A program made the position numbers and the translations under genes. DNA of 64,000 nucleotides from Thermodesulfovibrionales bacterium. Its GTDB lineage: Bacteria > Nitrospirota > Thermodesulfovibrionia > Thermodesulfovibrionales > SM23-35. Every line of letters starts with the position of its first letter. Positions within the stretch are counted from its first letter, which is position 1. Under the pieces are notes generated by a model, which saw only the letters and a list, made by a program, of their open reading frames with translations, had not been told where the DNA came from and searched no databases. Below, piece by piece: positions 1 to 51,250 of the stretch. The DNA lies in assembly GCA_031082155.1 (NCBI GenBank), contig JAVHLL010000004.1, forward strand, positions 50,332 to 114,331, in the 5' to 3' direction.

Positions 1-1295
1 GCAGTAAATGTGACCCCTTTTGAGAGATCATTTAAATCTAATGGGGTAGAAGCAAGAATGACATCAATTATGGTTCCATCTTTTTTCATCCACCTTGTTT
101 CGACAACTCCGGTTCCTCTCTCGGCAATCTGACGATATTTCTCAGTTCCAACATATTCAAAGTCTTTTTGTGTTGGATAAAATATTCTTGCACTTTTTCC
201 CAAGAGTTCTTCTTTTCCATATCCGGTCATTTCACAAATACGCAGGTTAACATCAAGCAGGATTCTGTCTCTCACAAGTCCAATGCCTGTCGGAGCAACA
301 CGAAAGATGCTTTGCAGCTTCTCCTCGCGCTCCCGCTTCGCCTCCTCCGACCGTTTGTGCTCAATAATCTCCCATACGACATCTGCCATGAATGAAACAA
401 TTTCAACGTCTTTCTTGGTATAGTTTTTAGGCTTATTGCCAATGCCGAGGACAGCAACGATCCGATCCGCACGCATGATCGGAACGACCAGTTCACGGAT
501 AACGGCTGCATGTCCTTCGGGCAATCCTTTCCGATGCGGCAGCGAGTGGTAGTCATTGTGAATCACGGGCCTTCGCTGATGGATGCAGTCCACCCATACC
601 CCTGCCTGGTCAATGCCGTAGTGCATCCCTTTCCCTTTCACCATACAGAATTCTTTCATCGTTCTCGTTGACCATGCCTGCAGCGAAAGTGTTTTCTGGT
701 CTGGCTCTACAAAATGATAGAAACCAATGGGGCTGTCGATTAGAGCGCCGACTTCGTCTAGCGTCCTCTGGAGCAATTCTTCAAGTGAGTGAGTGCTCGC
801 ATACTGCATTAGCTCCAGTCGCAGATGCATCAAAGCCTCAGTCCGCTTTTGTTCGGTGATGTCTATAGCTATGTGAATTATTTTTTGAATATTGCCTTTT
901 TCATCAAAGACAGGTGTGCATGAGACGAGAAACACTCCGTCAAGTGCTTCTACTTCCATTTCGTTCGCTTCAGGTTTTGTTGAGGCAAGCATTTTTATCA
1001 ACGGGCAGTTTTCTGGCGGTTTAGTGCTATTATGAAAAATTTCATAGCATTTCCTGTAGATCAGTTCTTTCGCGGAAATTGCTCCTACTGCTTTTACCGT
1101 AGCCCTGTTTACAGAGATGATATTATATTGTACGTCGAGTATTATTGTTGGATGATTTATGGCCTGAAAGATATTCTCCCCTTCTTGGCGGATGTGCATT
1201 ATATTTTTCTTAATTTTTTTACGTTTATCTATTTGCTTGCGCAGCTTTTCATTTTCTGTTATAAGATCTTTTTTTGTCTTCGTTTGGTCTTTCAT
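1..1295 (-). CDS. PAS-GAF-PAS sensor protein, N-terminal part (runs off the window)
   Basis: An open frame of about 431 codons runs from an ATG at 1295 off the left edge with no stop. A TAG lies directly before the ATG in frame, so this is the natural start. After a charged coiled stretch (residues 1-40) comes a PAS domain (about 45-150), ending in a 'DITEQKR' motif. A GAF domain follows (about 165-320), with the 'VP...VLGIGNK' strand and the 'YTKKDVEIVSFMADVVWEIIE' type ending typical of such sensors. A second PAS domain begins near 335 ('SIFRVAPTGIGLV'). No transmembrane segment is visible, so the sensor is probably cytoplasmic. The missing C-terminus would be a histidine kinase or a GGDEF output; which one cannot be seen. 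Confidence 0.85.
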   Translation of the reverse strand, partial: MKDQTKTKKDLITENEKLRKQIDKRKKIKKNIMHIRQEGENIFQAINHPTIILDVQYNIISVNRATVKAVGAISAKELIYRKCYEIFHNSTKPPENCPLIKMLASTKPEANEMEVEALDGVFLVSCTPVFDEKGNIQKIIHIAIDITEQKRTEALMHLRLELMQYASTHSLEELLQRTLDEVGALIDSPIGFYHFVEPDQKTLSLQAWSTRTMKEFCMVKGKGMHYGIDQAGVWVDCIHQRRPVIHNDYHSLPHRKGLPEGHAAVIRELVVPIMRADRIVAVLGIGNKPKNYTKKDVEIVSFMADVVWEIIEHKRSEEAKREREEKLQSIFRVAPTGIGLVRDRILLDVNLRICEMTGYGKEELLGKSARIFYPTQKDFEYVGTEKYRQIAERGTGVVETRWMKKDGTIIDVILASTPLDLNDLSKGVTFT

Positions 1296-6338: not shown

Positions 6339-6836
6339 TTATTTTTCCCTGGAAGAGATAAAAACCTTGCTACCCTCGACGATGAACCGATCTTCTTTCA
6401 TGAGGTATGTCATTGTTTGTCCGGTAATCACCTTTTCACCTTCCGCAGCCCTTGGCTCACCGGTAAAGACGACCTTTTCCTCCCCCGAGAAATAGGTTGC
6501 TTCCCTGGCGGTGATCACCCGCTTCTCTTTCATTACGCTTACGTTTCCCTGAGCGTTGATACGGCTAACATTGCCCGTATTGCTGTCATACGCGACACTC
6601 ATCCGGTCTGCCCATATGGTCATATCAGGGGTGCGTGCAACGACAGAATGCTCAAAAACAGCCGAGTGTGTCTTGCTGTCGGCAGTGAGTTTCTGGGAAG
6701 TGATAACCACCGGGCCCTGAATCTTTTTCGTCTCTTCAGCAAAGGCGGGTGCCGAGAGCAGAAAGACGAGGATAAGGGCGCCGCCATAATGGCAGAGATT
6801 ACTTATGAAATGTCGCCTTGACATCATTGAGAACAT
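6339..6836 (-). CDS. lptA: LPS transport periplasmic protein LptA
   Basis: About 165 aa from the chosen ATG at 6836 (others at 6827 and 6824). The frame stays open farther upstream to 6968, but that part lies inside lptC and does not look like signal sequence. From 6836 the protein starts with a charged end and a hydrophobic signal peptide ending APAFA, then an OstA/LptA beta-jellyroll: 'ITSQKLTADSKTHSAVFEHSV', 'ARTPDMTIWADRMSV'. It bridges LptC and LptD across the periplasm. The start region overlaps the end of lptC by about 38 bases, which favours translational coupling. Confidence 0.9.
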   Translation of the reverse strand: MFSMMSRRHFISNLCHYGGALILVFLLSAPAFAEETKKIQGPVVITSQKLTADSKTHSAVFEHSVVARTPDMTIWADRMSVAYDSNTGNVSRINAQGNVSVMKEKRVITAREATYFSGEEKVVFTGEPRAAEGEKVITGQTMTYLMKEDRFIVEGSKVFISSREK

Positions 6837-7308
6837 TGACTTTCTGTTCCGAGTCTGCCTGCATGCCTGTGCCTTCAATGCTGAATCCTTTCCCCTCCAC
6901 CCTGATTTTTCCATCGGTTCTGATCTTTCCCGAAGCAACGTCATAATCGAGTGAATCTGCTGAGACACGAATGTCTTTCCCGGAGACTTTCACCGTTTCA
7001 TCTGTGGAAAAGCTCTGGCTCGAAAGATCATATACTCCTCTGTCTGCATGGAGTATCATGCCGTTTTTCTCTATGCGGAGTTCTATATCACTCAGTTCCG
7101 CCCTTTGTTCTCCTTCCCGGAAATCAGCCTTGCTTGCCGTGAGAGTCCATGTGGTGACGCCGTCCTTCTTTTGCACAATCCGGATATCTTCGAGAAAAGA
7201 ATCCGTCCTTGTCCGTATATCCCCGACCATTTCCTTCCCGCTTCTCAGCATGAAGAAAAGACTGCTGAAAAACAAGACAGAAAGCCCTATCAGTAAAAAT
7301 TTCCTCAT
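6799..7308 (-). CDS. lptC: LPS export system protein LptC
   Basis: 169 aa. One N-terminal membrane anchor (about residues 3-22) is followed by a periplasmic LptC-type jellyroll ('LSDIELRIEKNGMILHADRGVYDLSSQSF', here read as the usual strand pattern). LptC sits on LptBFG and passes LPS to LptA. It is the first gene of the lpt-rpoN-hpf-rapZ run. The region upstream (7309-7410) is a divergent promoter region shared with the rightward gene at 7411. Function is assigned by both sequence style and position before lptA. Confidence 0.88.
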   Translation of the reverse strand: MRKFLLIGLSVLFFSSLFFMLRSGKEMVGDIRTRTDSFLEDIRIVQKKDGVTTWTLTASKADFREGEQRAELSDIELRIEKNGMILHADRGVYDLSSQSFSTDETVKVSGKDIRVSADSLDYDVASGKIRTDGKIRVEGKGFSIEGTGMQADSEQKVNVLNDVKATFHK

Positions 7309-7410
7309 TCAAAATTCTATCACACAGGATGCCCTATGTAAACCCGTTGCTGAAAAAGCATACGGAAAGATTCCCTTGAAAAAATATTGCTGCCGTTCAA
7401 TAATAGAGCC

Positions 7411-7731
7411 ATGATTTCTTTTGAAGATTTCAAGAAACTGGACATCAGAATCGGAAAAATCATTGCCGCCGAGAGAGTCCAGGATACCGAAAAATTGCTG
7501 AAGATCGAGATCGATCTCGGCACCGAAAAAAGACAGCTTGTCGCAGGGATTGCACAGAGCTATGAACCTGATGCGCTTATCGGGAAAGAAATCCCGGTTC
7601 TTCTCAATCTGGAACCGCGAACCATCAGGGGAGTTGAAAGCCATGGCATGATACTCGCCGCGGTTTCGGATGGGAAGGCAGTCCTCATGCATCCCGACAA
7701 AGAAGTCCCTCCGGGAAGTATCATCAGATAA
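7411..7731 (+). CDS. Stand-alone tRNA-binding (EMAP/OB-fold) domain protein, MetRS-beta-like
   Basis: 106 aa. The whole protein is one tRNA-binding OB fold, as in the C-terminal part of methionyl-tRNA synthetase and in CsaA: 'FKKLDIRIGKIIAAERV', 'LGTEKRQLVAGI', 'PRTIRGVESHGMILAA'. The frame is open for eight codons before 7411, but homologues normally begin with 'ISFEDFKKLDIRIG', so the ATG at 7411 is preferred. It may act in trans with a MetRS lacking this domain or as a CsaA-like chaperone; the sequence cannot decide. It is divergent from lptC. Confidence 0.85.
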   Translation: MISFEDFKKLDIRIGKIIAAERVQDTEKLLKIEIDLGTEKRQLVAGIAQSYEPDALIGKEIPVLLNLEPRTIRGVESHGMILAAVSDGKAVLMHPDKEVPPGSIIR

Positions 7732-7848
7732 GCTTGCACGGGGAATTCACCGGAGAAGCAAGGAGACTGTCTGATTTTGGACGGTTCTGATTGGCACATT
7801 TTTCCCCCTGCTTGTCTCATGGAATAAGAATGCAGTTAAGGTAAGAGA

Positions 7849-8859
7849 ATGATCCCCCGGAAAGAACAATTCAGCGGATGTCTGATCGGCCAGTGCCTCG
7901 GCGATGCGACAGGCTTTGTTGTTGAAGGGTATTCCCCTGCTGCATGCAGGCGGTATGTTGAGGATTTTTTAAAAACTGACAAGACAGAGCAATTCGGAGG
8001 GCATTTCCCCTTCCCTTTCGGGCAGTATTCCGACGACTCACAACTTGCCCGCGAACTGATGCAGAGCTATGCTGCCTGCAGAAAATTTGATCCTGCTGAT
8101 TATGCTGAGCGGTTGAAGATGATTTTTATCGAGAAAAGAATCGTTGCCTTCGGGTATTCGACAAAAGAGGCCGTAAAAAGATTATGCCTCGGAACACCAT
8201 GGGAGGAGTCCGGGGCGCCGCCTCCGGCAGCGGGGAATGGAAGCGCCATGCGGGCAGCGCCCATCGGCCTGTTCTTCTATGACAATCCCGATATACTCAT
8301 TCAGGCCGCCCACGATCAGGGGAAGATCACTCACCGGGACCCGAGGAGTTCTGCAGGGGCAGTTGCAGTAAGTGGCGCAGTAGCGTTCGCACTGCAGGAG
8401 AAGCCAATCAGGCCTGACAGGTTGCTCGCAACACTTGGAGACTGGACCGGCAGGGTATCTCCGGTATTCGCCGCAGAAGTGGCAAAACTCCAGGAATGGC
8501 TTCCCCTCCCGCCTGCAGAGGCAGCAGAAGTCATTGCTGATGCAGGGTTTGATGCCGAGTATATTGATGACGATGAATGGAAGGGCATATCCGGATATGT
8601 CATCAGCAGTGTACTCTGGAGCCTCTATTCCTTCCTCAGAACACCCGAAGATTACTGGGAAACCATCTGCACTGCTATCTCTGGAGGCGGTGATACGGAT
8701 ACAACAGCAGCGATGGCGGGTGCAATCAGCGGCGCCTATTTGGGGCTTGGGGGTATCCCTGCACATCGTCCCCGGCAGCTTACAGACAGGCAGACCTGGA
8801 AATACGATGAACTGGTTGCATTGGCGCATCAGTGCTATGAAATAAAAATGAGGACATAA
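7849..8859 (+). CDS. ADP-ribosylglycohydrolase (DraG/ARH family)
   Basis: 336 aa. The family metal-site motifs are visible: 'GQCLGDATGFVVEG' near the N-terminus, 'YSDDSQLARELM' (SDDSQ), 'GNGSAMRAAPIGL' in the middle, and 'GGDTDTTAAMAGAISGA' near residue 285. These coordinate the dinuclear Mg site that hydrolyses the N- or O-glycosidic bond of ADP-ribose on a target. DraG reactivates nitrogenase reductase, but no nitrogenase or DraT is nearby, so the substrate here is unknown. A 117-base gap separates it from the previous gene; a repeat element follows. Confidence 0.9.
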   Translation: MIPRKEQFSGCLIGQCLGDATGFVVEGYSPAACRRYVEDFLKTDKTEQFGGHFPFPFGQYSDDSQLARELMQSYAACRKFDPADYAERLKMIFIEKRIVAFGYSTKEAVKRLCLGTPWEESGAPPPAAGNGSAMRAAPIGLFFYDNPDILIQAAHDQGKITHRDPRSSAGAVAVSGAVAFALQEKPIRPDRLLATLGDWTGRVSPVFAAEVAKLQEWLPLPPAEAAEVIADAGFDAEYIDDDEWKGISGYVISSVLWSLYSFLRTPEDYWETICTAISGGGDTDTTAAMAGAISGAYLGLGGIPAHRPRQLTDRQTWKYDELVALAHQCYEIKMRT

Positions 8860-44120: not shown

Positions 44121-45935
44121 TTACATTTCCACCCTTGTCATAACGCCATGCAATTTATGAGAAGGAAGTTTATAAAACTGGACAAATGTAGGATTAAGCC
44201 GTTTGATGATTGAGAAGATCTTCCACAATATATTTTTTGTGGTAATGTCTTCAAGGCCGTAAAAAATAGTATTCTCCTCTATCCCTGCTTCTCTCAATAC
44301 CTCCTCGATATCGGGAACTTCCAGATACCCCGTCTGAATTTCGAATATTCTTAGTCCGTTCCCAAGATCCTCCTTAAAAAACCCGGCTACTCCGAAAGGA
44401 TCATCACGTTTTATGACCGTAACAAGAATATTATTCTCATAAAGGATGTTGTTGATAAACATGCTCCGGATCATGAAAGGTGGAATCTCTTTCGGGTCTT
44501 TCAAAAAAAACAGGGCGGCACCCTGCAGCTTATTTCGTGTCGTATAAGCAGCAGTATACTTTTCAAGAAATTCCTCCAAAGGTATCGCCTTCAATTTTTT
44601 GTAAAGCATCTTCTGTCCCCTTGTATAGATCATGATTACCGCGAAAGGGATGGCTCCAATTATAATCGACCAATACCCGCCGTGGGGTATTTTGTAGCTG
44701 TTCGAGAACAGGTACAAAATATCAAGAAAAGTTACCAGCAACGAAATAATCGCAAGGTGCTTTTTCTTTTTCAGATGGAATATCCAGGTCATCATTATCC
44801 CGGTAAGGGTCATGGTTCCCGTCACTGCAAGACCATAGGCAGCTGCAAGCCGATGCGATTCTCTGAATATGTACATAACAATCAGAACAGAAATCAGCAA
44901 AAACCAGTTCACGAGCCCTATATATATCTGCGACCTGAGTTCAGTCGAGGTAAATTCTATCTTGAACATAGGCATGATATGAGTTGTTATTCCCTGATAG
45001 ACGATAGAGAACATCCCGCTTATCATTGCCTGGGAAGCAATAACTGTAGCGAGAATGCTGAGGATAAGGAACGGGACATAAAGCGCTGCTGACTCATGCA
45101 GTATCATCTCAAAGAGTGTGCTCTTCGCATGGGGATGTTCAATGAGAAATGCCCCCTGTCCAAGATAATTAATAAGCAGGGCAAAGAACACGAAATACCA
45201 TGCTCTCACAATGGGTTTCCTGCCTAAATGTCCCATGTCAGCATACAATGCTTCTCCTCCCGTAGCACAGAGGAAAACCTCCGAGAGAATAAAAAACCCT
45301 GAGACACCGTTCTCCATAAGAAATTTGAACGCATAATATGGGTTTATTGCCTTGAGGACATACGGAGCATGAATTATCGATAGTACGCCTGAGAGAGCGA
45401 GGGAAAGAAACCATATCACCATGATCGGTCCGAATGTCCGGGCAACCTTCTCAGTCCCCTTTCTCTGGAATGAAAAGAGCACTATGGCGATGAGGCCGGC
45501 AATAAGGATCAATACACCCTGGCTCATATTCTCGAATCCCGGGATGAGGAGAGAACCTTCAACTGCGCTCAATATGCTGATCGCAGGGGTAATCACTCCG
45601 TCTCCTATGAGAAGGGATATTCCGATGAATGAGAGAAGGGCAATAAAAGACACGTGCCTGCCTTTTTTAAGCAAAGGCACGAGGATTTCTTTGAGGACAA
45701 TGGTTCCCCCTTCACCTCTTTTCCCGAGGCTCATTGCAAGCCAGGCATATTCAACAGTTACCAGAATTGTCATTGTCCAGGTGATGAGAGAAAGCACCCC
45801 CATGACATTCACTTCGGTTGGTTTGGTGAGAAGAAAGACAACTGTTATGGTGTATATGGGGCTTGTCCCGATATCACCGAACACAAGACCGAGGGATTTG
45901 ATAATCCCTTTCACAGGGGATTCCCTGTTCAGCAT
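44121..45935 (-). CDS. kup: KUP family potassium uptake protein (copy 2, riboswitch-controlled)
   Basis: 604 aa, the same length as the copy at 13603 and highly similar over its whole span ('LGLVFGDIGTSPIYTITV', 'GDGVITPAISILSAVEG', 'CATGGEALYADMGHLGRKP'). About 12 transmembrane segments plus a C-terminal cytoplasmic part. The ATG follows GAGGAGGAGTT. Its leader holds a ydaO-type riboswitch and a terminator, so high c-di-AMP should turn it off. This makes it the regulated member of the pair. Confidence 0.95.
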   Translation of the reverse strand: MLNRESPVKGIIKSLGLVFGDIGTSPIYTITVVFLLTKPTEVNVMGVLSLITWTMTILVTVEYAWLAMSLGKRGEGGTIVLKEILVPLLKKGRHVSFIALLSFIGISLLIGDGVITPAISILSAVEGSLLIPGFENMSQGVLILIAGLIAIVLFSFQRKGTEKVARTFGPIMVIWFLSLALSGVLSIIHAPYVLKAINPYYAFKFLMENGVSGFFILSEVFLCATGGEALYADMGHLGRKPIVRAWYFVFFALLINYLGQGAFLIEHPHAKSTLFEMILHESAALYVPFLILSILATVIASQAMISGMFSIVYQGITTHIMPMFKIEFTSTELRSQIYIGLVNWFLLISVLIVMYIFRESHRLAAAYGLAVTGTMTLTGIMMTWIFHLKKKKHLAIISLLVTFLDILYLFSNSYKIPHGGYWSIIIGAIPFAVIMIYTRGQKMLYKKLKAIPLEEFLEKYTAAYTTRNKLQGAALFFLKDPKEIPPFMIRSMFINNILYENNILVTVIKRDDPFGVAGFFKEDLGNGLRIFEIQTGYLEVPDIEEVLREAGIEENTIFYGLEDITTKNILWKIFSIIKRLNPTFVQFYKLPSHKLHGVMTRVEM

Positions 45936-46004: not shown

Positions 46005-46145
46005 TCCATTGCCCTTCCAAATGCCTACGAGGTTAGCTGTCGGGCTCGGGCTTGGAAGTGCCCTATTCCCGGTGATTCCGGGAAATACGCCCCATATTCC
46101 GGGTCCCCCGTATCCATTCTTTGAATGGATTTCGGCTGCTCTTTG
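46005..46145 (-). promoter_or_regulatory. ydaO-yuaA class c-di-AMP riboswitch aptamer
   Basis: The minus strand contains the family core in order: GCCGAAA near 46136, ACGGGGGACCC near 46110, GGGGCGTATTTCCCGG near 46095, and GAGCCCGACAGCTAACCTCG with GTAGGC at 46043-46023. These are the conserved blocks of the ydaO riboswitch, which binds two c-di-AMP molecules. It lies about 80-200 bases before the second kup gene, with a terminator in between. Potassium transporters are a classic target of this RNA. Confidence 0.95.
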
Positions 46146-46150
46146 ATTTT

Positions 46151-46273: not shown

Positions 46274-46912
46274 TCATAAAGTTTTTTCCGCCGATATTAC
46301 AACAAATAATCCCTCTCCATGTCCTTCTCTTACCGGCTCTAAAGCAGTTATTTTGTCCGGTTTCTGGAAGATTGTTTGCAGGATATGAATATGATTGTAT
46401 CCCAATATCCTCAGCCATTCCACAACCTGCTTGACTGAATAAAATTCTGCATACTCATAAAACTTGCTGCTCTTTTTTTTAGAGTCATATTCCTTACCAG
46501 GAGGACTGTCTTCATCAAGCATACCGATAATTATTTTTCCTGACGGGCGAAGAATTCTTCTTATTTCCCTTAAAGCTTGCAACGGATCATTAAGAAAGCA
46601 GATTGTTGTGACCATTAACGCAAAATCAAATGCGCTATCATCGAATGGCAGATTCTCTGCTTTGGATTCATATACAGTAATTCCTCTGCTTCTTGCAATT
46701 TCAGCCATTGTTTCTGAAGGTTCAACGCCGATGGTTATACCGAAAAGGACTGAAAACCTTCCTGTCCCTGTTCCTATTTCAATACCCTTTCCAGCCTGAG
46801 GCAATACAATTTTCACTGCCTGTACTTCTGATCGATAAACCCAAGGATGGACATCGAACCATTCATCATACTCTTCGGCATATTTATCAAATACATTAAT
46901 CTTGTCCATCAT
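46274..46912 (-). CDS. SAM-dependent class I methyltransferase
   Basis: 212 aa from the ATG at 46912, seven bases after GAGGA. The frame extends to 46945 inside the previous gene. Motif I 'GKGIEIGTGTGRFSVLFG' (about residue 40-57) binds SAM, 'GVEPSETMAEIARSRG' and 'AENLPFDDSAFDFALMVTTICF' are motifs II and III/post I. The type-11 (UbiE-like) fold does not tell the acceptor. As last gene of the ArsR-led selenoprotein operon, a metalloid or thiol acceptor is a possibility, but this is only inference. Confidence 0.85.
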   Translation of the reverse strand: MMDKINVFDKYAEEYDEWFDVHPWVYRSEVQAVKIVLPQAGKGIEIGTGTGRFSVLFGITIGVEPSETMAEIARSRGITVYESKAENLPFDDSAFDFALMVTTICFLNDPLQALREIRRILRPSGKIIIGMLDEDSPPGKEYDSKKKSSKFYEYAEFYSVKQVVEWLRILGYNHIHILQTIFQKPDKITALEPVREGHGEGLFVVISAEKTL

Positions 46913-46922
46913 ATTGATTTCC

Positions 46923-47651
46923 TCAGGAAATATTTCCGGCATCACCGCTGGACTTTTTCATTCTGGATCGGTACAAAGCTATCAGTTTCTTTATCATTAT
47001 GGGAAAAATTCCAATCAGTGCAAAAGAGATGATTAGGCCTGGGGAGAGAATACCTTTGACAGACTCAATCTTTGCCAGTTCTTTTCCCGCGTTCACAAAC
47101 ACCATTGTTCCGGGCAACATCCCTATCTGTGATACCCAATAGAATTTGAAAAAGGACATTTTCGTCAGCCCCATAGCAAGGTTGATCAGCCAGAAAGGGA
47201 ATATCGGAATCAACCGCAGGGTGAACAGATAGAACGCCCCTTCTTTTTCAATCCCTTTATTGACCTTCGCAATCTTCTCGCCGAATTTATTCTGTATCCA
47301 GTCCCTTAAAAGAAACCGGGAAACAAGGCATGCCAATGTAGCGCCGATAGTGCTTGCGAAAGAAACCACAATTGTCGCTGTCCAGAAACCGAATAGTGCG
47401 CCTCCGGCAATACCCAGGGGAGAAGCGCCCGGCAGGGAAAGTGAGGTTGTAAGGACGTAAATAAGAAAATAGCCGGTAATTACCATAAACCTGTGGTTTG
47501 CATAGAGGGACTTAAGCGAATCCAGCGATCCCTTTAAATACGAAAGGGTGAGATATTGGTCGAGGTGAAACATCTTAACCGCCACAATTAATCCGACAAT
47601 ACTAATCAGGATAATTATTTTCTTTCGCTTCATTTCCGAATCATTCTCCAA
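46923..47651 (-). CDS. TVP38/TMEM64 (DedA-like) inner membrane protein
   Basis: 242 aa, about six hydrophobic segments. The central 'LSLPGASPLGIAGGALFGFWTATIVVSFASTIGATLACLVSRFL' region (cited in parts) and 'RLIPIFPFWLINLAMGLTKM' are the SNARE-associated/VTT domain motifs. VTT proteins move or scramble lipids; some are found with mercury and other metal detoxification genes. It overlaps the DsbD-fusion stop by 11 bases, and the methyltransferase follows after 10, so it belongs to the same operon. Confidence 0.9.
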   Translation of the reverse strand: MENDSEMKRKKIIILISIVGLIVAVKMFHLDQYLTLSYLKGSLDSLKSLYANHRFMVITGYFLIYVLTTSLSLPGASPLGIAGGALFGFWTATIVVSFASTIGATLACLVSRFLLRDWIQNKFGEKIAKVNKGIEKEGAFYLFTLRLIPIFPFWLINLAMGLTKMSFFKFYWVSQIGMLPGTMVFVNAGKELAKIESVKGILSPGLIISFALIGIFPIMIKKLIALYRSRMKKSSGDAGNIS

Positions 47652-49374
47652 ACGCCCTTTTCATTCTTGGCAGAAATTCTTTTCCCGGAACATAGTCTAC
47701 AATCTGTAATTCCTTGATTTCATTTCCACCATCATCAAGGAATATAACAGTCGGGACACCCTTAACATCGTATTTTTTCAGCAGTTGCAGAACATCCGGA
47801 TTGGCCTCTTTTGTCAGATTAACTTTTATCATACTGAATTTTGCAGATTCTTTCACTACATCCTTATCATGGAATGTCTTTTTGTCCAGTTCACGACAGG
47901 GCGTGCACCAGTCTGCGTAAAAGTCAATGATTATCGGTTTTTTGGCAGCTATTGCTTTTGTATACGTTTCCTGAGAATATGGTTGCCAGGATACCCCTGG
48001 TCCCCGTAAGAAGACAGATCCTGCAAGGAATAGAGATAATCCTATTGCAAAAACACCGGCGGTTCTTTTTATTATGACGAAAGTCCGCAGGGTTTTGCCT
48101 GTTTGGCTTATAAAACCCAGATGAACTCCTGAAGCCAAAGCAATTAATGCCAGCATGTAAGTTCCGGCATCATGCCATGGGAACAACGGTCTTATAAAAT
48201 ATACAGCCATGGCAAGCATGATCCATCCGAACAAAGTTCTGATCCAAATCAACCACTCACCTGAGCTTGGGAGCTTGCTCAGATTTCCGGCAAAGAGAGA
48301 CAGAATAAAAAGCGGCAATCCGAGACCAATGCTTAGAGTAAAGAATATAAGAAAACCGTACAGAGGGTCTCCCTTCTGCGCAACCATGGTCAAAAGACCT
48401 ATAATGAATGGCCCGATACAGGGTGCAGCAACGATACCGAGTGTCAGTCCCATAAAGAGTGATTGTGCATAACCTGTATGAGATTTTGATACGGCGGAAC
48501 TCAGGAAACCTGGCAATCTCAGTTCCCATAATCCGAAGAAGTTGAGCGCCATGAGGAGCAGTACAGATGCAACAAAAATAAGCACGGCAGGATGCTGGAG
48601 AAACGAGCCCATGAGTTTCCCGGTGAAAGCTGCCGAGACACCAATGGCAGAGTTCATGACCGAAAGTCCAAGAATATAGAGAAGGCCATGCAGAATAAGA
48701 TACCCCTGGCGTTCACCCGTTTCACTCCTGCCGCCAAAATATGAAGCGGTAATCGGAATGAGTGGGTAAACACAGGGAGTCAGATTGAGAGCGATGCCTC
48801 CTAAAAACACTCCGAGGAGTGTCAGAATCAACCCTGTTCCAATAACGGTCGAAATGCCTTGTCCTTCGGACACTCCATAAGACGCACGTCCTGCCTCAAT
48901 AGGCAAGCCCATCTCCTTCCACGTCGGAAGTCCCTGAGCAAATCGGTATACATTTTTATATCCGAGTTTTACAGCCAACCTGGCTGCACCGTGACTTCGC
49001 ACTCACGTGAGACCGTCTCAGTAAAAAATTACTTTTTTGTTTTTGTCAGTACCGAGGACTTTTTTCATATCCGATCGTGTCATGGGAGAGTATTGATTCC
49101 ACCATGTGGGGGCAAAATCAATATGCGACGATCCCTTTATATGCTGCATCTGATATGACCACTCCTGTCTTGTATCGACAAGAAGGAATGCTGCTGAATC
49201 TTGCAGATATTCCTTCCCGAGTTCCTCAGGCGTGACAAGATGATACCCTCCCTTTTTTGCCTCAGCAACGACCTTGTCCCAGGCACGTACTTCATTCTGA
49301 CTATCTGATTGTGCTGGACCAGTATAACTCATAAAAAAGAAGAATAATAAACTTATGTACATTATTTTTTTCAT
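47641..49374 (-). CDS. Rhodanese-DsbD-thioredoxin fusion with two in-frame UGA codons (predicted selenoprotein)
   Basis: 577 aa if both UGA codons (49020-49018 and 49005-49003) are read as selenocysteine. The ATG at 49374 follows GGAGG by 10 bases and starts a signal peptide. Residues about 25-165 form a rhodanese domain: 'LLVDTRQEWSYQMQHIKGSSHI', then 'KVIFY-U-DGLT-U-VRSHGAARLA', where U119 and U124 replace the two Cys of the active-site loop. A DsbD-type transmembrane domain follows (about 175-430; Cys201 in 'NLTPCVYP', Cys319 in 'AAPCIGPF'), then thioredoxin (WCTPC, Cys490 and Cys493). Electrons would pass from cytoplasmic thioredoxin through DsbD to the outer domains. Without recoding the gene gives a truncated rhodanese and an orphan DsbD. 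Confidence 0.85.
48970..48988 (-). promoter_or_regulatory. SECIS-like hairpin for the second UGA (Sec124)
   Basis: On the minus strand UGCAGCCA (48988-48981), loop GGU (48980-48978) and UGGCUGUA (48977-48970) form an 8-bp stem with one G-U pair. The loop starts 26 bases from the U of the UGA at 49005, and begins GG, as in bacterial SECIS elements. Confidence 0.8.
48990..49007 (-). promoter_or_regulatory. SECIS-like hairpin for the first UGA (Sec119)
   Basis: CGUGA (49007-49003) pairs with UCACG (48994-48990) around loop GUGCGAAG. The loop starts 19 bases from the U of the UGA at 49020 and begins with G. The second UGA is itself part of the stem, so the two hairpins sit back to back. Confidence 0.6.
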
Positions 49375-49399: not shown

Positions 49400-49651
49400 C
49401 TAAGACCGCTTTTCGATAACCGCTTTTTCAACATCTTCAAATGTAGCTTCGCTGCCGAGTATTTTGTCATCAACAGCTATGTTGGGGGGTTTAATGGCAT
49501 CTCCCTTATGACCAAATCCTAGTAAACCGGAATAAACGGTTTCCACTTCTACATCATCGGGGTATTTTTCTTTGACTCTCCCGGCCAAAGCACAGAGATT
49601 TGTTCAACGTTTTCCGGCAGGCCGGTTGGAATAAATTGTTACTTTCACCAT
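49400..49651 (-). CDS. Small thioredoxin-like protein with in-frame UGA (predicted selenoprotein, SaoT-like)
   Basis: 83 aa if the UGA at 49606-49604 (codon 16) is selenocysteine. The ATG at 49651 has an excellent AAGGAGGTG site, so translation surely starts here, upstream of the UGA. The protein reads 'VKVTIYSNRPAGKR-U-TNLCALAGRVKEKYP': a first beta strand, then a U-x3-C redox motif and helix, as in a thioredoxin/glutaredoxin fold, and later the cis-Pro 'KPPNIAVDDKIL'. It resembles small (seleno)proteins that I recall being named SaoT; this needs an HMM check. The hairpin after the UGA (loop GGCCG about 21 bases on) is weak. It lies 25 bases before the rhodanese-DsbD gene. Confidence 0.75.
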
Positions 49652-49690: not shown

Positions 49691-50479
49691 TTAGTGACCT
49701 GTCAGCACCTGATACCACATCCTTAGTCCGGTTATTGCTATTATGATTGCGATGAAAAACCGCAAGTATTTCGTGTTGGTCTTTTTGCTGATCTTCCCGC
49801 CTATCTGAGCGCCTGGTATTGTGCCGATAACCAGAGCTATCGCATAGGGCCAGATTATCTGTCCAGTTGCCATCTTTCCGATGGTGCCAGTGATCGCTCC
49901 AAGTAATACGATACCCAGGGTGCTCCCAATCACAATTCTCGTCGGGATATTAAGGAGATATATCATCGCCGGGATGTAGATAAAAGCGCCGGGTGCCCCT
50001 ACCATTCCGCCGAAACTTCCAATCAGCAGGCTCACCCCCACCGCAAGAGGCTTTTTATAGACAAGCTCATCTGGAGAGATATCTTCCCCTTGTTCGCGCT
50101 TTGGAATAAACATAGCAACAGCGGCTATAACAGCCATAGACGCGAATATTGCAAGCAAAAAATCGCTCTTTGTCTGCTTCGAAAAAATAGATCCTGCCAA
50201 ATTACCAGCTGCATTGGCTATACCCATATACAGCAGAAGAGACTTGCTGACAAAACGATTTTTGTTATGCACGATGACCCCTGAAAGGGATGCAGAAAGA
50301 ACCTGGACCATGCTGACCGCAGCCACCTGCTTCATGTCAAGTTGTCCGACACCAAGCAAGGGAGGCACGTAGAGGAGCAGGGGTATCATGAAAATTGCTC
50401 CGCCGAGTCCAAGAAGACCGGAGAGAAATCCGCCGCCTAATCCAAGGAATAAAAGCGTTATAAGAAAAGGAACGTCCAC
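49691..50479 (-). CDS. Sulfite exporter TauE/SafE family permease
   Basis: 262 aa with about eight transmembrane segments. The two glycine-rich repeats 'GLGGGFLSGLLGLGGAIFMIPLL' (read in part) and 'GSFGGMVGAPGAFIYIPAMI' mark the TauE/SafE (DUF81) family, and 'GTIPGAQIGGKI' is the usual C-terminal motif. Members export sulfite, sulfoacetate or other small oxyanions and thiol compounds. It follows the DsrE-like gene by 8 bases and precedes the UGA-containing thioredoxin-like gene by 39 bases, so it probably moves the substrate or product of this system. Confidence 0.92.
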   Translation of the reverse strand: MDVPFLITLLFLGLGGGFLSGLLGLGGAIFMIPLLLYVPPLLGVGQLDMKQVAAVSMVQVLSASLSGVIVHNKNRFVSKSLLLYMGIANAAGNLAGSIFSKQTKSDFLLAIFASMAVIAAVAMFIPKREQGEDISPDELVYKKPLAVGVSLLIGSFGGMVGAPGAFIYIPAMIYLLNIPTRIVIGSTLGIVLLGAITGTIGKMATGQIIWPYAIALVIGTIPGAQIGGKISKKTNTKYLRFFIAIIIAITGLRMWYQVLTGH

Positions 50480-50487
50480 ATTACACC

Positions 50488-50814
50488 TTAGAAGCAGACA
50501 AGCTTGTCGCTCGTCATAACCATTTCATACAAGTCTTTCTGGCTGCCTTTACGGCAGACATCATTCTCTTCCAGTCCCCTGAACCCGAGACACTTGCCGC
50601 ACGCAAGCAATTTGCCGTCGCTCAGGACAAATGTTTTCGCCAGCTCTTTGATATTGAACTTCTCTGAATCACAGCTTTCATATTCGACAGCCTTTGCATG
50701 CATAAAAATTGATACTTCGTCGTTCACGTTTGTGTTGAGACAGAGATTCGCAAAGCGAAAGGCGTTCCAGATTATTTCTGCGTCACCGGTTGAAATAAGA
50801 ATACCGATTTTCAT
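50488..50814 (-). CDS. DsrE-related sulfur-carrier-like protein
   Basis: 108 aa. The fold pattern 'KIGILISTGDAEIIWNAFRFANLCLN', 'VSIFMHAKAVEY' and a C-terminal 'LLACGKCLGFRGLEENDVC' is that of DsrE/DsrF-like proteins, with a CxxC in the position where the active Cys is found. Such proteins bind persulfides and pass sulfur between partners in the cytoplasm. It lies 32 bases after the ArsR gene and 8 before the TauE gene. I recall DsrE-related members (SaoD) in selenoprotein neighbourhoods, to be confirmed. Confidence 0.8.
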   Translation of the reverse strand: MKIGILISTGDAEIIWNAFRFANLCLNTNVNDEVSIFMHAKAVEYESCDSEKFNIKELAKTFVLSDGKLLACGKCLGFRGLEENDVCRKGSQKDLYEMVMTSDKLVCF

Positions 50815-50846: not shown

Positions 50847-51188
50847 CTATCTTTTCCGTTCTCCCGGATATACCCCCTTTTTCGTAACAGGACAGCAGGC
50901 TGGTCTGGGGAGGGATTCATAGTAATCCTTACGGAGCAACTCAAGAAGATCAGGGATCAGGGGATGCACAAGAAAATAGCATCTGAGTCTTCCATCCATA
51001 TAATAGTCAACAACTCCAAAATGCCTGAGTAGTGTAAGATGCTGGGATATATTCGGTTGTCGTATCTCAAGAAATTCCTCAAAATCACTTACACATTTCA
51101 CCCCCTTTACCAGTTCTTCAAGAATTTTGATTCTGACGGGGTGGGAAATAACCTTTAGAAGCTCTACCTTCTGGCCCAATGAAAGCAT
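50847..51188 (-). CDS. ArsR/SmtB family transcriptional regulator
   Basis: 113 aa from the ATG at 51188, five bases after AGGAGG; the GTG at 51194 overlaps that site and is rejected. Winged helix: 'KVISHPVRIKILEELVKGVKCVSDFEEFLEIRQPNISQHLTLLRHFGVV' (cited in parts) with the recognition helix 'RQPNISQHLTLLRH'. One Cys in helix 3 ('GVKCVSD') and a vicinal pair near the end ('RPACCPVT') could sense a metal(loid), a persulfide or redox state. It is the first gene of the selenoprotein operon and has a dyad on its own promoter, so it very likely represses the operon. Confidence 0.92.
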   Translation of the reverse strand: MLSLGQKVELLKVISHPVRIKILEELVKGVKCVSDFEEFLEIRQPNISQHLTLLRHFGVVDYYMDGRLRCYFLVHPLIPDLLELLRKDYYESLPRPACCPVTKKGVYPGERKR

Positions 51189-51204
51189 TGGCACCTCCTG
51201 TTAC

Positions 51205-51250
51205 ATATATTCTTATTTTTGAATATATTAATATTTGAATATTTTGTCAA
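51205..51250 (-). promoter_or_regulatory. ArsR-controlled promoter and operator of the selenoprotein operon
   Basis: TTGACA (51250-51245), 17-base spacer, TATATT (51227-51222). A perfect dyad ATATATTC-N8-GAATATAT (51205-51228) covers the -10 box, and a second inverted repeat AATATT-TG-AATATT (51230-51243) lies in the spacer. AT-rich dyads of this type bind ArsR/SmtB repressors. Confidence 0.85.

Follow-up and report, generated by a model that had tools for sequence, protein, structure and literature searches.

In a window of 64,000 nucleotides (nt) from a Thermodesulfovibrionales bacterium (GenBank assembly GCA_031082155.1, contig JAVHLL010000004.1, positions 50,332 to 114,331 of the forward strand; coordinates below are those of the window, the whole stretch analysed), the minus-strand frame 49374–47641 forms a gene of 577 codons, tsoB, whose sole interruptions before the stop codon (TGA, 47643–47641) are a TGA at codon 119 (UGA1, 49018–49020) and another at codon 124 (UGA2, 49003–49005). 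We read this gene as a member of the TsoB family in which both UGAs are likely decoded as selenocysteine (Sec) by the SelA, SelB and tRNA-Sec of the same genome, with one hairpin serving both codons and the resulting Sec pair acting in a membrane electron relay, and we put the probability of this reading at roughly two in three. We infer Sec at the two positions because of the family score, the conservation of the codons, the existence of homologues with Cys at both sites, a covarying hairpin and the presence of Sec machinery.

The window protein matches the NCBIfam model NF045694 (rhodanese/DsbD fusion-like selenoprotein TsoB) full length, scoring 838.8 bits (cut-off 805) over residues 10–573, and its two in-frame UGAs fit the motif UxxxxU, with two Sec, that a 2026 review of the prokaryotic selenoproteome (PMC13188914) gives for TsoB, crediting the family to Haft and Tolstoy 2025 (mSystems). 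On this match the gene is a member of an already published, recently described family, here in another lineage and with a changed operon. The original prediction had called a double-Sec active-site loop on a membrane electron conduit very unusual; that central claim is already in print (NF045694; PMC13188914), and this is not a new kind of protein. New from the present analysis are the proposed shared hairpin, a TsoC-like gene and a possibly competing tRNA-Cys/SelB system. Kept in dozens of genomes, tsoB offers a natural test case for how many UGAs one bacterial hairpin can serve, and its decoding could be worth following in the window genome, which also encodes a possible cysteine-inserting rival system. 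Its matched active-site pair, whose two members have been replaced or lost together in the four full-length relatives without Sec that were compared, makes a diselenide role in a membrane relay directly testable.

The frame proposed in the original prediction, broken by two TGAs only, is exact in its coordinates and in both codons, and the proposed rhodanese-DsbD-thioredoxin fusion is borne out by all three domain models. After a hydrophobic N-terminus come a rhodanese domain (residues 59–154; 55.2 bits, cut-off 22.2), a DsbD membrane domain (DsbD_TM, 184–397) and a thioredoxin domain carrying WCTPC (466–553), as located by Pfam search. UGA1 takes the first position of the rhodanese active-site loop, which reads FY-U-DGLT-U, and a ribosome-binding-site-like AAAGGAGG lies 5' of the gene; both had been predicted and both are present.

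To follow the TGA pair we used 83 loci, made up of the best 80 of 556 confirmed loci from a scan of genome contigs, for which the query was an alignment of the window protein and four relatives, and three loci, L018–L020, from a search of the phylum, L020 being the window's own copy. TGA occupies both positions in 77 of the 83, and the other six have no rhodanese match by tblastn, so the pair is conserved beyond chance. Within the same phylum, 395 genomes were searched and three of them exceed the TsoB cut-off; all three belong to the window genome's own family, of which 3 of 15 listed members have TsoB, and all three matches hold two internal TGAs. Close database proteins come from Thermodesulfovibrionales (P0029, P0033), Nitrospira sp. 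(P0044) and Nitrospirota (P0073). Gene callers split tsoB, and most of the 120 listed database relatives span only the part after UGA2, as would be expected if the TGAs were genuine stops or mistakes in the assembly and the region encoded two distinct proteins; set against the 77 TGA/TGA loci, the lack of a rhodanese match in the other six, the conserved hairpin and the Cys found at both positions in homologues, this explanation has a probability very close to nil.

The claim that the TGAs fall at Cys positions of relatives also stands. Cys occupies both Sec positions in the full-length database relatives P0095, P0096 and P0119, and again in separate rhodanese genes from the same order, which share the loop as (F/I)YC-x4-C-TRS in nine of nine loci inspected. 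These separate genes differ from tsoB in having Cys, not Sec, and in being open frames of 122–206 residues, hence without a DsbD or thioredoxin part. On a quick tree the three Cys/Cys proteins and a fourth full-length relative without Sec, P0097, nest among the Sec/Sec forms, P0119 sitting on a long branch that leaves its placement unsure; across these four the pair has been replaced or lost jointly. When the rhodanese part of P0095 served as the query of a protein search, only P0095 and P0096 were returned among 124 candidates. Separately, the tsoB frames of three loci (L088, L108 and L118) stop early, past both TGAs, at 184, 301 and 480 codons.

The hairpin was sought by comparison. Numbering from UGA1, which places UGA2 at +15, we aligned 75 sequences gap-free and scanned position pairs 4 to 59 nt apart; the sole helix with marked covariation across the relatives joins +33..38 with +44..49. 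In 97% of the sequences five pairs of this helix are complete; when synonymous codons were permuted 1000 times within columns, that share averaged 59% and never exceeded 69%. Parsimony on a tree of 71 TsoB sequences puts the coincident changes at about nine for pair 35/47 and about six for 38/44, and when column 35 was set against 57 variable columns its partner gave nine and the remaining 56 at most six. In the window this helix belongs to a hairpin at 48988–48970 on the minus strand, with an 8-bp stem, a GGU loop and an energy of -10.1, whose loop starts 22 nt downstream of UGA2 and 37 nt downstream of UGA1.

The model of the bacterial selenocysteine insertion sequence (bSECIS) in PMC13188914 has a stem of 4–16 bp, a loop of 3–9 nt with G in its first two positions, a distance of 16–37 nt after the UGA and an energy of -7.5 or lower. 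The window hairpin, which the original prediction had proposed checking with a SECIS finder, conforms to these rules for both UGAs, and in the family the same element lies 36–37 nt from UGA1 and 21–22 nt from UGA2. A conforming hairpin for each UGA is found in 69 of 76 sequences, and for UGA1 it is the shared hairpin in 67 of those 69; a nearer UGA1 hairpin (16–30 nt) that conforms and lies within the energy limit occurs in 15 of 76. With its loop at these distances, 37 and 22 nt, one element suits both codons, and we infer from these comparisons a single SECIS shared by both UGAs throughout the family. A narrow literature search found no report of one hairpin serving two bacterial UGAs.

Synonymous codon use departs from that found elsewhere in the gene at codons 120, 121, 123 and 125 to 138 except 136 and fades at 139–142; examples are GTC at codon 125 in 63 of 74 sequences against 21.8 expected and GAC at codon 128 in 66 of 72, the associated probabilities treating related sequences as independent. 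The UGA1-proximal hairpin region may, given its synonymous constraint, have a minor role. One family-wide candidate there, +16..20 with +27..31, was rejected: it pairs fully in 63 of 75 sequences, and the inner 3 bp form in 71 of 75, but it shows only about one coincident change. Two observations stand apart from these. In relatives, a synonymous bias at codons 137–138 (CTT/CTC, GGT) runs beyond the 3' side of the hairpin, and no pairing partner for it was found; in L111, an in-frame deletion after UGA2 takes out the hairpin region of tsoB while both TGAs are kept.

The window genome (completeness 100, contamination 2.12) holds all the components that the original prediction had proposed looking for: SelA, two SelB proteins over the cut-off, a tRNA-Sec with UCA anticodon as selC, and SelD (387.6 bits, cut-off 125), the SelD frame itself having a TGA near its start. 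The second SelB is encoded at 6599–8641 on the minus strand of locus L128 (genome contig C35), directly after a tRNA-Sec-like tRNA with a GCA (Cys) anticodon in which, by eye, a T precedes the encoded CCA. The two SelBs share 62% identity across 626 positions, the C-terminal part included. A GCA tRNA of the same kind was called in genomes G355, G166 and G180, and G221 and G128 gave the UCA tRNA only; a second match in G142 received no call. Such tRNAs have precedents, selC-like tRNA-Cys being reported from several phyla including Nitrospirae, and a second selB from two deltaproteobacterial groups (PMC7609411); the title of a 2018 paper cited in PMC8762117 reports that UGA is recoded by cysteine through a tRNA of this kind and a SelB. 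At the same locus, SelD adjoins a 2-hydroxyglutaryl-CoA dehydratase D-like protein and a BadF/BcrA-type activase (L128 8859–11943, plus strand), beside the second SelB and its tRNA. A rhodanese gene next to the GCA tRNA was considered as a recoding candidate for a flagged TAA and rejected, as the TAA closes an ordinary open frame.

Several findings weigh against the reading of tsoB as a double-Sec gene decoded through one hairpin. The first is that the second SelB and the tRNA-Cys(GCA) could put cysteine at both UGAs. Cysteine might then be inserted partly or always, as a fallback at low selenium, and the direct succession of tRNA and selB, the likeness of the two SelBs, the reported selC-like tRNA-Cys systems and the existence of Cys/Cys relatives all speak for it. 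The same genome, however, also has the UCA tRNA-Sec, SelA and a SelD whose frame contains a TGA, and the GCA tRNA does not track tsoB, since G221 has tsoB with the UCA tRNA-Sec only (at the threshold used) and G166 and G180 have the GCA tRNA with no TsoB over the cut-off, while G355 has both; we judge cysteine decoding unlikely. The second concerns the hairpin. The original prediction had placed a hairpin after each TGA; the UGA2 hairpin is present and conserved, and a separate one for UGA1 folds in the window as well, +13..17 with +26..30, its loop 15 nt after the codon. This fold slightly lowers the odds that the shared element acts for both codons, although as a family feature it was rejected, only two of the 76 sequences (L019 and the window's copy) having it complete. 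The corresponding 53 nt of the window fold with a total of -21.3 kcal/mol (z -2.75; equalled in 4 of 200 shuffles), with extra hairpins preceding the main one. Third, not every relative has the pair: in P0097 its places are taken by Gly and Arg, each by a codon that could derive from TGA by one change, and P0103 (541 residues), which was left out of the comparison of relatives without Sec, is missing the active-site loop stretch altogether. A homologue with neither Cys nor Sec does exist, then, in P0097, yet 77 of the 83 loci keep both TGAs. The predicted model of TsoB, at a predicted local distance difference test (pLDDT) of 78 and a predicted template modelling score (pTM) of 0.53, leaves the domain arrangement unreliable. 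Lastly, the expected Tso partners are poorly recognised, with 28.8 bits for the TsoC-like gene against a cut-off of 45 (NF045708), 28 bits for the window's ArsR-type regulator against a cut-off of 115 (TsoR model NF045707), which marks it as an ArsR-type regulator of another sort, and no match to the TsoA model (NF045695) in any of three near genomes, where no control genome matched either.

If the shared hairpin and the second tRNA are taken together, a single SelB-bound hairpin would decode two UGAs five codons apart in one pass, UGA1 lying at the far spacing limit, and the second SelB with tRNA-Cys would let the same hairpin place Cys, giving Sec/Sec, mixed or Cys/Cys products according to selenium supply. 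We offer this as a tentative proposal, with the odds leaning somewhat against it.

The Sec pair would sit in a DsbD-like protein. In DsbD the N-terminal domain is the electron-exit domain. The window TsoB shares with DsbD the membrane domain and the C-terminal thioredoxin domain but has a rhodanese where DsbD has its N-terminal domain: it scores 234.1 bits on the DsbD model NF001419, under the cut-off of 330, and a Pfam search of the protein found no match to PF11412, the DsbD N-terminal domain. Six DsbD-type relatives are without the rhodanese part (L021–L026), and the three of them that were inspected point the same way, L021 having an ordinary DsbD N-terminal domain and L022 and L026 looking similar by eye; since the rhodanese-less L021 carries that domain, the rhodanese would hold the place of the electron exit. 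C201, C319 and C490/C493 are invariant in 30 aligned sequences. From this domain make-up a reasonable route would lead electrons from cytoplasmic thioredoxin via the membrane cysteines C201 and C319 and then the WCTPC thioredoxin domain to the Sec pair, with U119 and U124 cycling between diselenide and diselenol. To judge by the ArsR, DsrE and TauE neighbours, the natural substrate would probably be a sulfur compound, oxidised or sulfane, on the outer side of the membrane. The predicted model places loop 119–125 between a strand and a helix, and a Foldseek search with it returned DsbD-gamma and rhodanese structures; a search of viral structures gave five matches at E 0.001 or better, all of them thioredoxins.

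The strength of the rhodanese match, together with the DsrE and TauE/SafE neighbours, would also suit a protein that is mainly a sulfurtransferase, in which U119 carries sulfur as in an ordinary rhodanese and the DsbD part keeps U119 reduced. Classical rhodaneses have a six-residue active-site loop from Cys to Arg (C-x4-R), whereas the TsoB loop runs from U119 to R126; in alignments it is two residues longer than those of the solved rhodaneses 6mxv, 2hhg and 1qxn, the gap against 1uar being one residue or none. The second residue is, moreover, as conserved as the first, and single-site transfer needs no second. We hold a chiefly sulfurtransferase role to be unlikely and prefer the Sec pair as part of a membrane relay.

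On the minus strand tsoB follows, in order, genes for an ArsR-type regulator, a DsrE-like protein, a TauE/SafE permease and a TsoC-like protein, and is followed by genes for a VTT protein and a methyltransferase. The regulator (50847–51194) falls in the metalloregulator subfamily (NF033788, 67.6 bits, cut-off 55). The DsrE-like protein (50488–50814; PF02635, 37.8 bits) and the permease (49691–50479; PF01925, 154 bits) come next. Downstream, the VTT-domain membrane protein (46923–47651) and the methyltransferase (46274–46945) were assigned by domain match; their families occur near tsoB in 22 and 8 of 77 loci, respectively. Upstream of the regulator, a sigma-70-like promoter TTGACA-17-TATATT (51222–51250, minus strand; 11 of 12 positions) is a consensus match only, 11 such sites being found in the region against 9.3 expected by chance. 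The subfamily of the regulator and the methyltransferase in the operon could indicate handling of a metal, a metalloid or a selenium oxyanion and not sulfur chemistry. The ArsR class, however, includes a sulfite sensor, on whose BigR model the window regulator scores 50.8 bits (under the cut-off of 155), and DsrE and TauE/SafE are sulfur-type neighbours, which leaves a metal or oxyanion operon quite improbable.

The Tso operon has three selenoprotein genes according to PMC13188914; the window locus differs in that its TsoC-like gene is upstream of tsoB and divergent in sequence and in having DsrE and TauE genes within the operon. This small predicted selenoprotein gene (49403–49651, minus strand) reads NRPAGKR-U-TNLC, with a UGA at codon 16 (49606–49604), and is, to judge by its motif, a divergent TsoC and a third TGA-containing gene, absent from the original prediction. 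It shares with TsoC the motif N-x-P-x-G-x-x-U and the position of U but has a Cys four residues after U and is about 20 residues shorter than most TsoC examined. Copies in L018 and L019 are 84 and 83% identical. Among the 120 database relatives listed of 139, the best two are full length with Trp at the UGA codon, which suggests a database translation that took TGA for a Trp codon; the others are 60–65 residues long, and the five that were read begin after the UGA codon. As for a SECIS in this gene, shuffled sequences fold locally as well as the native one does (z 0.04). A search with the TsoC model (NF045708) matched none of three genomes, nor any control genome.

The upstream placement recurs elsewhere. 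In L095, on a contig labelled Nitrospirota, a standard TsoC (148.7 bits) lies upstream of tsoB behind an ArsR regulator 74% identical to that of the window. Of 78 frames with the TsoC motif in the loci, at least two of them spurious short frames, 68 are downstream of tsoB, four upstream (the window's copy, L018, L019 and L095), two upstream on the other strand and four unplaced. Judged by motif, TsoA is present in 34 and TsoC in 57 of the 77 tsoB loci, with neither in 17, some of which contig ends may account for. It is possible that TsoA is a Sec-containing regulator; as evidence for a DNA-binding selenoprotein, a winged-helix match at the C-terminus, present in only 2 of 14 members (L049 3707–4153 and 13 others), was set aside as weak.

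Outside the operon, a cyclic di-AMP (c-di-AMP) riboswitch (RF00379, 88.7 bits) at 46007–46147 on the minus strand lies a short distance upstream of a frame for a Kup-like potassium transporter (44121–45935), which scores 384 bits on the kup model, below the cut-off of 539.6.

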